Positions 39,915-43,996 of a DNA stretch of 64,000 nucleotides are shown here, piece by piece; position 1 is the first letter of the stretch; the number at the start of each line of letters is the position of its first letter. A program made the position numbers and the translations under genes. Origin of the DNA: Methylophilus sp. (lineage in GTDB: Bacteria; Pseudomonadota; Gammaproteobacteria; Burkholderiales; Methylophilaceae); NCBI RefSeq assembly GCF_008015755.1, contig NZ_SSGF01000016.1, positions 1 through 64,000 on the forward strand, in the 5' to 3' direction. The notes under the pieces are model-generated. The model searched no databases. It worked only from the letters and a program-made list of their open reading frames with translations, and was not told the DNA's origin.

Positions 39915-41162
39915 TTATTTGCCGTAGACTGGGAATTTGTCAGTTAATGCGTGTACTTTGGCTTTTACCGCTGCAATGACTTCTGCATTTTCCGGGTTAT
40001 CCAGCACGTCGGCGATCAGGTTAGCCACTTGCTCGGCCTCGGCTTCTTTAAAGCCACGGGTGGTAATCGCTGGCGAACCGATACGGATACCGGAAGTCAC
40101 GAATGGGCTCTCAGGGTCGTTAGGAATCGCGTTTTTGTTGACAGTAATGTGCGCTTGGCCGAGGAAAGCATCAGCCGCTTTACCAGTCAAGCCTTTAGGC
40201 CGTAGATCAACCAAAAATACGTGTGACTCAGTACGGCCAGAGATAATGCGCAAGCCGCGTGCCGCCAGTGTATTGGCCATCACGCTAGCGTTTTTCAACA
40301 CTTGTTCTTGATACACCTTGAACTCAGGCTGGGCTGCTTCGAGAAAAGCCGTGGCTTTACCGGCGATGACATGCATCAATGGACCACCTTGCAAGCTTGG
40401 GAACACGTTAGAGTTGATGGATTTTTCAAACTCTGCTTTAGCCATGATGATACCGCCACGTGGGCCACGCAAGGTTTTGTGCGTGGTAGAAGTGACGAAG
40501 TCAGCGTGTGGCACTGGATTAGGGTAAACACCACCGGCGATCAGGCCAGAATAGTGCGCCATGTCGACCATAAAATAAGCACCGACTTTTTTAGCGATCT
40601 CAGCCATCCGTGCCCAGTCAAAACGCAGGGCGTAAGCAGACGCACCACCAATCAGCAATTTTGGTTTGCACTCAATGGCAATACGCTCCATCTCGTCGTA
40701 GTCAATTTCCTCTTTGTCGTTCAAGCCATAAGGCACAATATTGAACAACTTGCCGGACAGGTTGGCCGGGGAGCCATGCGTCAAATGACCGCCGTGGCCC
40801 AGGTTCATGCCCATGATGGTATCGCCTGGTTTTAAAATAGAGAAATATACCGCCTGGTTGGCTTGTGACCCAGAGTGCGGTTGCACGTTGGCATACTCCG
40901 CGCCATACAGTGCCTTCAGGCGATCAATCGCCAATTGCTCCACTTGGTCAACAAACTCACAGCCGCCGTAAAAACGCTTGCCTGGATAACCTTCCGCATA
41001 CTTGTTAGTCAGCTGCGAGCCTTGTGCTTCCATCACCGCTGGGCTGGTGTAGTTTTCTGAGGCAATCAGCTCAATATGCTGATGTTGACGTTCGACTTCG
41101 GCAGAAATCATGGTGGCCAAAGCTGGGTCTGCAACGCTTAAGTTTCTTGAAAAGCTAAACAT
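39915..41162 (-). CDS. glyA: Serine hydroxymethyltransferase
   Basis: The PLP enzyme interconverts serine and glycine, loading one-carbon units on tetrahydrofolate. The 415-residue protein has [56 protein letters not shown] and the PLP-lysine motif [18 protein letters not shown] 41,162 is chosen as the start; an upstream TTG (41,171) is unlikely. In a methylotroph it links C1 assimilation to serine. It is probably the first gene of a glyA-nrdR transcript. No riboswitch is recognised upstream. Confidence 0.96.
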
Positions 41163-41390
41163 GACGATCAAGTTTCCGTATCAATAACAATAAAGTGTAA
41201 TTTTACCATGAGGCGACCATGGCATGCACCTATCGCATGCGTCAGCGCAAGATGCCTGCTTTTTTGGGGCAAGCAAGCGCGGAAAATGACAATGTATGGA
41301 AGATCGCTGCAATCGTAAAGATACTGGCCACCTGAGAGCTAGTTAAAACCTGAAAGAGCGTTGTCATAAGTGCGCCAGCATTGCACGCCT
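41163..41390. other. glyA upstream region, no gene seen
   Basis: This is the left part of the 436-bp gap between glyA and the AsmA gene. It must hold the glyA promoter. GCATGC occurs twice in close inverted arrangement (41,226-41,241), and there is no open frame with a credible start. The right part of the gap holds the NtrC/sigma54 small-RNA unit. Confidence 0.5.
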
Positions 41391-41407
41391 TGCACCAAAT
41401 TAGTGCA
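41391..41407 (+). promoter_or_regulatory. NtrC-type enhancer site
   Basis: TGCACCAAATTAGTGCA matches the E. coli glnA NtrC site TGCACCAAAATGGTGCA at 15 of 17 bases. It is part of a larger exact dyad, CCTTGCAC / GTGCAAGG (41,388-41,410). It lies about 87 bases upstream of the sigma54 element, a typical NtrC distance. Between them is another dyad, GTTGCTG-TCT-CAGCAAC (41,420-41,436). Confidence 0.72.
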
Positions 41408-41492
41408 AGGCATCAAACAGTTGCTGTCTCAGCAACAGGCAATAAATCCATAAAACAAGCTATCTTATTGATTTAAATGTAATTATAAAAGC

Positions 41493-41508
41493 TGGCACAG
41501 CTTATGCT
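41493..41508 (+). promoter_or_regulatory. Sigma54-dependent promoter of a predicted small RNA
   Basis: TGGCACAGCTTATGCT has the full -24 element TGGCAC and a -12 ATGCT with GG and GC ten bases apart. Only the first base of TTGCT differs. Transcription should start near 41,518-41,520 and run rightwards into no gene. Confidence 0.75.
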
Positions 41509-41518
41509 TAGTAGTAGC

Positions 41519-41577
41519 CGTAAGCGTATATCTCCAAAATCGCTCCCTAAACCCAACTTCGGTTGGGTTCTTTTTTT
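41519..41577 (+). ncRNA. Predicted nitrogen-regulated small RNA of about 60 nt
   Basis: The transcript is bounded by the sigma54 promoter on the left and a strong UUCG-capped terminator on the right, and contains no coding frame. Before the terminator stem, the unpaired part holds UCUCC (41,530-41,534) and CUCCC (41,543-41,547), both complementary to Shine-Dalgarno sequences, suggesting translational repression of target mRNAs. NtrC/sigma54-driven small RNAs such as NrsZ are known in Pseudomonas; this one is not recognised by sequence. The 5' end is estimated from the promoter. Expression is not shown by the sequence alone. Confidence 0.62.
41550..41577 (+). terminator. Intrinsic terminator with UUCG tetraloop
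   Basis: The stem AACCCAAC / GTTGGGTT closes a TTCG loop (41,550-41,569) and is followed by C and seven T. Polarity is clearly rightward; the other side reads TTTAGGG and is a weak terminator for the leftward AsmA gene. Confidence 0.9.
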
Positions 41578-41598
41578 GCCATAATCCAACACAGGCCA

Positions 41599-43659
41599 TT
41601 AGTGTTTACGCGCTTTTAATTGTTGCAGCGTCTGCTGACAACCTTCATCCGTCACCTCTGAGGCACTGCCAGGGTCAAGAAAAGGCAAAATCGCCGCAAA
41701 AGGATTAATTAATGCCAGCAACACCCCACCAGCCAGGCGCGCGGCAATCGGGCCGGGGCTCAGCGACACCTTGGGATCCACAAACGGGCCGGTGACCAGG
41801 ATGGGAGAACGCACGGTAAAAGGGGAGAAGTTTTTGGGGCTGGCTTGCAATTTGAGGTTAAGCAATTCCTGCCCCAGATTGATCTCGCCTTGCACATTCA
41901 CAGTGGTGACTGGCGTATCAATCAAGGCTGCCTCTGGCGTCAGCACGCCTTGCTTGGCATGCCAGCCCATGGCCGCACATTGCATAGGCAGGGCTTGATC
42001 ACCTTTCATCAGCACGCCAATAGCTTGCGCAATATCCAGGCCTGCAGCCTCGACCAGCAGATGCGAAATTTCACCCTGGCGCACCATCAGCGCCAACTGG
42101 CCATCCAGTGATTTAAGTAACGCCGCCGTAGAGCGTCCGCGCCCTTGCAAGCTGGCTTTGCCGTTTAACTTGCCTGAAATATACGCTGGCGCCTGACTGG
42201 TTGACGCAGGCTTGGCTGAAGAAGGTTTGGTTGGCGAGACTTTGTCATCAGCCACCTTATTCTCTGGTGTCACCTTTAGCCATTGCTCCAGGCGAATATC
42301 GCGCACTGCCAATTGAATATCCCACTCAGGCGCAGGTGGCGGGGATAAGTCAGTATTAGTGGCGTCATGAGCATCAATACTCAAAGCACCGGTGAGCGTG
42401 CCTTGTGCGGTACTGGCTTCGAGTTCAGCCAGGCTTAGTTTGTGTTTATTCAGGGTTAAGCGCAGCTTTAAAGGTGCAATACGCTGCTTAAAGGCATTGC
42501 CTAAATCCACCGCATCCAGATGCACATCAATATCGGCATTCATACGCCCATAGGTACTAAAATCCAACGATTCGTCAGGGAACAGCTTACCGGGATGCGC
42601 TTTGGCGGCAGAACTCCCCTGGCTTGCACCAAACGCGGGCGCTAAATCGGCCAGCATCAGCAACGCACCTTGTAGCTTGCCACGCAGCATGGGCGTTTCG
42701 GGGGCAAAGTCATACACAAACTGCCCGGATAACCGGCTACGCCCAATATGGGCAGAAGGAATATTCACCTGCCACTGATCAATGCCTTTTTCAATCTCGG
42801 CACTGACTTTAAAGGCGGCAGTACGTGGTAAGGTCAGGTCCAGCAAATCGCCGACGTCTGCCAGCGATGTGCCTTTCACATCCACCTTGCCTTTCACGCG
42901 TTGCGTGCCAAACAAGTCATAGACTTCCCCCCGAAATTGCGCGTTGACCGCGCCATACTTCAACCAACCCTGAGAGTTAATCGGTGGCGACTGGCTACCC
43001 TGGGTCGCCACCGGCAAAAAGCCTTGCGTAACCAACTCGCCCTGTAGCGGGCGCTTGCGAAACTGACCATGAATCTTCAACCGCGATTCCGGCGTGGCCA
43101 GATGCGCCCCTTCTTCGGTAAAAAAAGTCAGTGCCAGTTGGGCGTCAGTGACAGCGTCGGTGACTTTGGCCTGGCCCTGATTCACAGCCAATTGTTCGAT
43201 CAGCGGAAACGGCCGTGGCGGACTGCTATCATCCAGTTCAAACTGCCAAGTTGCATGCTGGTCTGCGCGGCGCAGCAGGTAGGCATTGAGCTGATCCGCG
43301 CGAATCGCGGCAATGCGATAAGGGTCGTTTTCTTTGAGCGACCATAGATCACGGTAACGCAGTGCCAGATCCAGGCCATGTGCATCAATAAAATAAGCCG
43401 CGTCAAAGCCTTCTGGTGCCGACAATTTCAATCCACCCACTTGCAGGTGAATGGCGCCCAGCAACTGCAAGCGAAATGGGCGCTCGATCTCGACAGTGCG
43501 GTGTAATTTATCCTGCAGCAATTGTTGCAAGGGCTGCCGCAAAAACGGCCAACCGGCGATTTCACAGGCAATCACCGCCAGCACAAGAGCCAACACAGTG
43601 CCCGTAATCCAGTTGCTCATCGGTATGGTTTTTTTTGTGGTGATGTCGTTCTCATTCAT
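41599..43659 (-). CDS. AsmA-family protein
   Basis: The 686-residue protein has an N-terminal membrane anchor (SNWITGTVLALVLAVIACEIAGW), an AsmA-type beginning (LLQDKLHRTVEIERPFRLQLLGAIHLQVGGLKLSAPEGF) and a C-terminal AsmA repeat (SPFTVRSPILVTGPFVDPKVSLSPG). AsmA-like proteins form long bridge-like folds in the periplasm and act in outer-membrane lipid transport or assembly. A Pro/Ser/Lys-rich linker lies near residues 480-505. It is the last gene before the small-RNA unit, which is read on the other strand. Confidence 0.88.
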   Translation of the reverse strand: MNENDITTKKTIPMSNWITGTVLALVLAVIACEIAGWPFLRQPLQQLLQDKLHRTVEIERPFRLQLLGAIHLQVGGLKLSAPEGFDAAYFIDAHGLDLALRYRDLWSLKENDPYRIAAIRADQLNAYLLRRADQHATWQFELDDSSPPRPFPLIEQLAVNQGQAKVTDAVTDAQLALTFFTEEGAHLATPESRLKIHGQFRKRPLQGELVTQGFLPVATQGSQSPPINSQGWLKYGAVNAQFRGEVYDLFGTQRVKGKVDVKGTSLADVGDLLDLTLPRTAAFKVSAEIEKGIDQWQVNIPSAHIGRSRLSGQFVYDFAPETPMLRGKLQGALLMLADLAPAFGASQGSSAAKAHPGKLFPDESLDFSTYGRMNADIDVHLDAVDLGNAFKQRIAPLKLRLTLNKHKLSLAELEASTAQGTLTGALSIDAHDATNTDLSPPPAPEWDIQLAVRDIRLEQWLKVTPENKVADDKVSPTKPSSAKPASTSQAPAYISGKLNGKASLQGRGRSTAALLKSLDGQLALMVRQGEISHLLVEAAGLDIAQAIGVLMKGDQALPMQCAAMGWHAKQGVLTPEAALIDTPVTTVNVQGEINLGQELLNLKLQASPKNFSPFTVRSPILVTGPFVDPKVSLSPGPIAARLAGGVLLALINPFAAILPFLDPGSASEVTDEGCQQTLQQLKARKH

Positions 43660-43801
43660 AGCTTGTCATGATGACAATGATGGACGGGCTTGGCTAGTCC
43701 TGCCTGACTGACACACCTGTAGGCCGATTCTGTCAAATCCGATAAGCACTCTCAGTTATAATGCGCTTTAACACCCTCATTTGCACATGGAGCCGATTGT
43801 A

Positions 43802-43996
43802 ATGAAATGGACTGACAGCCAGCGTATCGCTGAAGACCTGTATGATAAATTGCCCGACGTTGACCCGAAAACCATCCGTTTTACCGACCTGATGCAATGG
43901 GTCATGGACCTGGATGGCTTTGACGACGAGCCTTCTCATTGCGGCGAAAAAATCCTAGAGGCCATTCAACTGGCCTGGATAGAAGAAGCCGAGTAA
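43802..43996 (+). CDS. iscX: IscX, Fe-S cluster assembly accessory protein
   Basis: IscX binds IscS and iron and tunes cluster assembly. The 64-residue acidic protein starts [20 protein letters not shown] and contains [16 protein letters not shown], typical of the family. GGAG lies nine bases before ATG 43,802. It is detached from any isc operon and lies directly before algC, with no gap between stop and start, so the two are co-transcribed. Confidence 0.93.

Follow-up and report, generated by a model that had tools for sequence, protein, structure and literature searches.

The window, i.e., the 64,000-nt stretch of Methylophilus sp. DNA analysed here, contains between glyA and an asmA-like gene what is almost certainly a real and conserved sigma54 small RNA, designated type A. 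Its promoter, RNA and terminator are conserved as a unit, NtrC-type dyads precede it, and the xoxF leader is both complementary to the RNA and associated with its presence; these are properties of the sequences themselves. The reading that we favour, with moderate confidence, is that type A is a trans-acting RNA under NtrC/sigma54 control that would block ribosome-binding sites, with that of xoxF as the best supported target.

The locus between glyA and the asmA-like gene

The RNA gene lies in the gap between glyA (39915–41162, minus strand, PF00464) and the asmA-like gene (41599–43659, minus strand, PF05170), beyond which iscX (43781–43996, plus strand, PF04384) is located. On the plus strand of this gap, an NtrC-type dyad, a sigma54 element and an intrinsic terminator follow one another in this order, and all three were found where the initial annotation had placed them. 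No open reading frame (ORF) of at least 40 aa in the ORF list of the window overlaps the promoter-to-terminator stretch, in agreement with the earlier claim that this interval is non-coding. No feature was assigned to the remainder of the gap, 41163–41389. The sigma54 promoter, TGGCAC-AGCTT-ATGCT (TGGCACAGCTTATGCT), occupies 41493–41508 on the plus strand, and its GG and GC are ten bases apart. By placing the RNA start at 41519, the usual 12 nt after the −12 C of this element, we predict a type A RNA of approximately 59 nt (41519–41577, plus strand) that ends with the T run; a short RNA of about 60 nt had been proposed.

Approximately 102 nt upstream of the sigma54 element, TTGCACCAAATTAGTGCAA (41390–41408, no strand assigned) forms a near-perfect dyad. 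Its form, TGCACCAANNNNGTGCA, was found a single time in the window and in no shuffle out of 100; looser dyads (three mismatches or fewer) show no excess in the window (25 vs. 43 expected). The NtrC-type site assigned earlier to 41,391–41,407 was thus borne out, but its identity to glnA is 14 of 17 bases rather than 15 of 17, as judged against the E. coli glnA sites. In the relatives, dyads were scored as the best match to TGCACCANNNTGGTGCA, the NtrC site consensus, in the 160 nt that precede the sigma54 element, and scores of at least 11/14 were called strong. A strong NtrC-like dyad was found in 29 of the 57 distinct type A upstream regions vs. 1.0% of shuffles, and 22 of these 29 are positioned at −98 to −103. 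The other 28 regions, many of them in genus g18, are without a strong dyad by the score used; in several g18 genomes, weaker and sometimes doubled dyads are positioned near −70 to −80. The window's genome encodes both ntrC (716 bits, on contig G000:C29, other than that of type A) and rpoN. Because rpoN (177/187) and ntrC (166/187) are present in nearly all genomes of the family, their phylogenetic profile is uninformative. Control of the type A RNA by NtrC is very likely, its transcription and NtrC dependence being predicted here from sequence. What had been put forward, an NtrC/sigma54-type promoter that precedes a short RNA with its own terminator and an exposed anti-Shine-Dalgarno sequence, is supported by comparative genomics.

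The 60 nt at 41518–41577 fold at z = −4.05, and the single-sequence folds of six sequences range from z = −2.9 to −4.9. The intrinsic terminator (41550–41577, plus strand) consists of a helix at 41550–41569 with a UUCG loop and a T7 run that reaches 41577, as annotated, and five of its eight pairs have changed on both sides among 18 aligned sequences. Upstream of the terminator, the alignment places a hairpin (41523–41544, plus strand) of AGCG (41523–41526) and CGCT (41541–41544), which holds the seed, AUCUCCAAA (41530–41538, plus strand), in its loop. For this AGCG/CGCU helix, 98.6% of the alignment cells are paired and no compensatory change is present; because the helix hardly varies, the hairpin is consistent with the alignment and unproved by it. 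A second C-rich stretch, CGCUCCC (41541–41547, plus strand), is nearly invariant in the 18 aligned sequences. At the xoxF ribosome-binding site, UUUGGAGAU is the complement of the seed, as the alignment and the xoxF leaders indicate; the initial annotation had described UCUCC as complementary to ribosome-binding sites. CrcZ is a sigma54-driven sponge RNA, and this precedent speaks for an RNA that serves mainly as a sponge for Hfq or another RNA rather than pairing at message starts. We consider such a role improbable, since the type A RNA is very short and, in place of repeated binding motifs, has one seed that hardly varies and is complementary to ribosome-binding sites.

Conservation of type A and its sibling in Methylophilaceae

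The reference set comprised 187 Methylophilaceae genomes. In the window's genus, BLASTN of 41375–41600 gave matches at E ≤ 1e-5 in 20 of 22 genomes, and the core, AAGCGYATATCTCCAAAATCGCTCCC, was matched in other genera of the 187-genome set too. A covariance model, R1, was built from 18 type A sequences (RNA only, promoter excluded), and the RNA of the window, itself among the 18, matched it at E = 3.2e-17. R1 has matches in 79 of the 187 genomes at E ≤ 0.01, a list whose weak end includes other things; a sigma54-like element lies upstream in 49 of its 51 matches at E < 1e-5, the two without being in G120 and G174. The type A RNA of G120 (L142, G120:C5:69982-70048) has its seed and terminator intact and no recognisable sigma54 element upstream. 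Sixty-four genomes were picked as type A carriers, 60 via the model or BLAST and four via a promoter-plus-seed pattern. The RNA and a sigma54-like promoter similar to that of the window occur together in 63 of these 64 genomes, which belong to four genera (g1, that of the window, 21; g18, 26; g19, 12; and g7, 4). In all 63, the promoter 16-mer and UCUCC are spaced by 17–23 nt, and 52 of them have TGGCAY. The genomic place is shared as well: glyA, a neighbour of type A in four genera, is included in the DNA fetched for 51 of the 64 genomes, the asmA-like gene is beside type A in 13 loci, all in g1, and iscX is the other neighbour in most loci without the asmA-like gene. Seven g18 loci (L090, L093, L095, L102, L106, L107, and L148) are without the window's neighbours; among the 64 loci, two were cut by contig ends and four were outside the neighbour comparison.

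The promoter-plus-seed pattern, a sigma54 element with UCUCCAA that catches both type A and its sibling, type B, was found in 93 of the 187 genomes, and the reversed pattern had no match in these 187. The initial annotation had made conservation of the promoter-terminator unit in related genomes a test of its proposal, and the 63 genomes bear it out; being conserved in relatives, the unit stands above chance level. A sigma54-like 16-mer alone is not rare, with two in the window vs. 1.4 expected, which speaks for a fortuitous series of sequences resembling a promoter and a terminator that yields no functional RNA. Such a coincidence is extremely improbable, given that the seed, the promoter spacing, the compensated terminator and the genomic place are conserved in four genera.

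Several other groups of matches were sorted out. Second-locus R1 matches in Methylophilus (L120-L127 and L138), which have neither a sigma54 element nor UCUCC, were dropped and read as the xoxF terminator because in G063 and G068 the match immediately follows xoxF. The R1 matches L109, L115-L117, L129, L132, L134-L136, L140, and L141 were dropped as being without a sigma54 element, and those without fetched DNA (mostly E above 0.002) were left unjudged. Pattern matches in records of Bacteroidetes, Ruminococcaceae, and Lachnospiraceae are without promoter and terminator. At E ≤ 0.01, one order-wide scan gave matches in 50 of 399 genomes, of which 6 belong to the family, and another in 125 of 398, of which 13 do; the best matches outside the family were at 5.7e-6 and 3.6e-8, respectively. 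No sigma54 element was seen at the order-wide matches read (L130-L132 and L140; L268-L271 and L273-L278, of which the minus-strand matches were judged by eye only). In another family of the order, L130 (G218:C6:4121-4295) and L131 (G262:C18:7015-7179) each contain two near-identical ATCCGCTTATCTCCAATACACCCC...terminator copies approximately 110–120 bp apart. Both retain UAUCUCCAA, a sigma54 element was found at neither, and the two loci were kept apart from type A; they are possibly a tandem sibling RNA.

Type B, which surfaced via the promoter-plus-seed pattern, is laid out as AAGCUUCUCCAAAGCU, then UUCUCCUCCCU, then a terminator, and UCUCCAA(A) is exposed in both the type A and type B RNAs. 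A type B model has matches at E ≤ 0.01 in 159 of the 187 genomes and in 24 of 24 genera; the matches in g2, g3, g10, g11, and g15 are weak (best 1.1e-4) and were not counted, and 19 genera have type B at 1.6e-6 or better. Six of the seven terminator pairs have changed on both sides among 39 sequences. In the window's genome, type B (G000:C27:3758-3818) lies behind TGGCATAGAAGGTGCT, and at the single locus annotated it is between glgA and orn. In three genomes, type B is approximately 4–5 kb from a second xoxF copy (G000:C27:3758 and 7685; G059:C15:63503 and 58390; G063:C1:526389 and 530319). Five of 61 initial type B regions (L201, L213, L222, L227, and L242) were moved to type A, and all three strong dyads of the initial set belong to reassigned regions (L222, L227, and L242, the last of which, in G167, is outside the 63 type A genomes). 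No strong NtrC dyad was found upstream of the other 56; since none of these regions reaches the dyad score, type B would need another activator. Collectively, the comparison goes beyond the initial annotation in adding the sibling type B, the deeply conserved seed UCUCCAA(A), and a most likely target, xoxF.

The xoxF leader and other candidate targets

The methanol dehydrogenase carries DYD, the lanthanide (XoxF) signature, and its closest solved structures are an XoxF chain (6dam) and a methanol dehydrogenase (1g72). A methanol dehydrogenase match was obtained in 59 of the 66 genomes searched and none in seven. The leaders of 56 of the 59 were used (G072, G139, and G165 were out owing to a fragment, a contig edge or a distant copy only), and the addition of five leaders gave 61 genomes of 15 genera, 60 of which were scored; G070, left out by the spacing rule, likewise reads CTTTGGAGAT. 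Each of the 31 scored genomes that have type A reads CTTTGGAG in its xoxF leader; CTATGGAG or CTACGGAG is found in 26 of the 29 genomes without detected type A. Three genomes break this association by having CTTTGGAG where type A was not found, G103 and G104 (both g16) and G151 (g18). The genomes of G103 and G104 are 1.6–1.8 Mb in size.

The same leaders also provide grounds for caution. CTTAGT-n-ACT[T/A][T/C]GGAG stands before xoxF in nearly all leaders read, across 15 genera, with type A or not (e.g., L354 and L384-L409). Because CTATGGAGAT is also kept in genera without type A, the xoxF leader is constrained by something else too; another regulator may read this conserved leader. In addition, Salcher et al. 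(PMC6794327) describe the pelagic small-genome lineages and Methylotenera plus Methylophilus as two branches from one ancestor, and the association between type A and xoxF may therefore be a single event. Both points favour an alternative in which type A is a real NtrC/sigma54 RNA that blocks ribosome-binding sites, with a main target other than xoxF, such as the porin near ntrC, and in which highly expressed genes of the clade simply tend to have TTTGGAGA as their Shine-Dalgarno context.

The occurrence of TTTGGAGA bears on this alternative in both directions. It was listed 3–10 nt before ATG in 13 genomes, and the counts, which are raw and uncorrected for composition, are 200 vs. 53 for the reversed control in 11 type A genomes and 12 vs. 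9 in two genomes without type A, an excess that argues against the alternative. Among the genes read, TTTGGAGA leaders precede those for methanol dehydrogenase, HxlA (hexulose phosphate synthase, hps), Fae (formaldehyde-activating enzyme), PqqC, and PqqE. They are also found before many genes unrelated to methanol, including those for ribosomal protein L28, ankyrin proteins and thiol peroxidase, as well as an efflux adaptor and others, which is what the alternative predicts. The target list is biased, as L180-L190 and L284-L313 were obtained automatically and L314-L353 were picked by hand, largely for recurring leaders; in the window's genome, 13 of 21 TTTGGAGA places were inspected. In four genomes of the genus (L186 and L319-L321), TTTTGGAGAT stands at the start of a porin gene located about 5 kb or less from ntrC. 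We regard hps, fae, pqqC, pqqE, and the porin gene near ntrC as further putative candidates for targets of type A. Against the alternative, the TTT and the base after GGAGA in the xoxF leader are not predicted by the 16S tail, and the base coupling described below was followed in two of three independent cases. On balance, we judge a main target other than xoxF to be rather unlikely.

For xoxF as the target, the RNA base that immediately precedes UCUCC was compared with the leader base opposite it, which follows GGAGA; the two read A/T in 26 genomes, T/A in four (G041, G042, G043, and G115), and T/T, which breaks the coupling, in one (G077). When the 28 genomes for which type A, a xoxF leader and glyA were all available were placed on a glyA tree (the fuller glyA tree has 48 rows), three independent changes in the RNA were counted, of which two were followed in xoxF and none went in the opposite direction (p = 0.5); with only three independent changes, the test falls short of significance. 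Cognate duplexes surpass permuted ones only slightly, as many as 104 of 5000 permutations being equally good, and the duplex energies depend on chance pairings elsewhere; the predicted pairing between type A and xoxF comprises only about 9 base pairs. Among second xoxF copies in type A genomes, TTTGGAG is present in four of nine (L412, L416, L417, and L421) and absent from L410, L411, L414, L415, and L420; the leaders of the distant copies L418 and L419 were missed by the automated search. Taken together, complementarity, association and coupling suggest that xoxF is probably a direct target of the type A RNA.

Proposed role and comparison with known systems

From these features, we infer a pairing, a repression and a physiological role that would proceed as follows. 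Under nitrogen shortage, phosphorylated NtrC would bind the dyad approximately 100 nt upstream and drive sigma54 polymerase from the promoter at 41493–41508, yielding the RNA of about 59 nt with its own terminator. The RNA would present AUCUCCAAA in its hairpin loop and pair with UUUGGAGAU at the ribosome-binding sites of messages, foremost that of xoxF, the lanthanide methanol dehydrogenase, and thereby block their translation. The expected result would be less methanol oxidation and less formaldehyde production when there is no nitrogen with which to build cells. More tentatively, and at somewhat less than even chances, the two sigma54 siblings, A with NtrC and B beside glgA with another activator, might form a carbon/nitrogen switch in which A stops methanol oxidation (xoxF, PQQ synthesis, fae, and hps) without nitrogen, and in which the RNA and the xoxF site co-evolve and are jointly absent in small-genome relatives. 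If true, the model would connect the nitrogen status of common freshwater methylotrophs with the step by which they begin to use methanol, suggest how formaldehyde production could be restrained when cells cannot grow, and offer a testable RNA-target pair with natural compensatory variants. The window's genus has an industrial history.

Among the literature matches listed, at the level of titles and abstract openings, no small RNA of Methylophilaceae or RNA regulator of xoxF was seen. A term search of the available text found no mention of small RNA, noncoding or intergenic in PMC3728764 (transcriptomes of three species), and small RNA solely in the references of PMC8262872 (Methylophilaceae). 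No Rfam family scored above the gathering score for the window or ten loci; SdsR, the best weak match (19.5 and 29.5 bits, cut-off 38), was rejected as being below the cut-off with an unfit seed region.

The initial annotation had stated that NtrC-controlled small RNAs are known in Pseudomonas, and this holds for NrsZ of Pseudomonas aeruginosa, which PMC9308961 describes as a small RNA induced by NtrB/C and RpoN under nitrogen limitation. Control by NtrC and RpoN is common to NrsZ and, as predicted, type A; moreover, the window and 29 of the 57 upstream regions of its relatives combine a sigma54 element at a nearly fixed distance with an NtrC-type dyad, the sequence marks of an NtrC/sigma54 small RNA. 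However, NrsZ, a processed RNA of 226 nt from the spacer between ntrC and PA5126, contains ACAGGCAG and is an activator of rhlA (PMC9308961), whereas type A is approximately 59 nt, lies beside glyA with ntrC on another contig, has the seed UCUCCAAA, and is a predicted repressor; by eye, ACAGGCAG is absent from 41519–41577.

Similar in mode of action are the Betaproteobacteria toxic small RNAs (RF02278, bdhR1) and Bordetella S17S (67 nt), which, like type A as predicted, are short and have single-stranded sites that cover ribosome-binding sites, according to PMC11722255. The same paper gives S17L a sigmaA promoter and cleavage by RNase E, unlike type A, and it is by this description rather than by sequence alignment that type A is set apart from S17S. 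RF02278 has no match at its gathering cut-off in the window or ten loci and, at a loose threshold, none for type A (the window and L017) or type B (L263 and L151); only the f33 tandem copies in L130 score on it, at 26.8 of 50 bits. The Qrr1-5 RNAs of Vibrio resemble types A and B in that several small RNAs are each preceded by a sigma54 promoter, with LuxO, a member of the NtrC family, as the activator, but they serve quorum sensing rather than the nitrogen role proposed here, and type A is not counted as a Qrr member because no Rfam family reached the gathering score. In its proposed role, type A would resemble the glnA 3′ UTR small RNA of Enterobacteriaceae, which, according to PMC9731577, is nitrogen-regulated and adjusts carbon flow; that RNA is a 3′ UTR fragment released from the glutamine synthetase message, whereas type A is a free gene with its own promoter.
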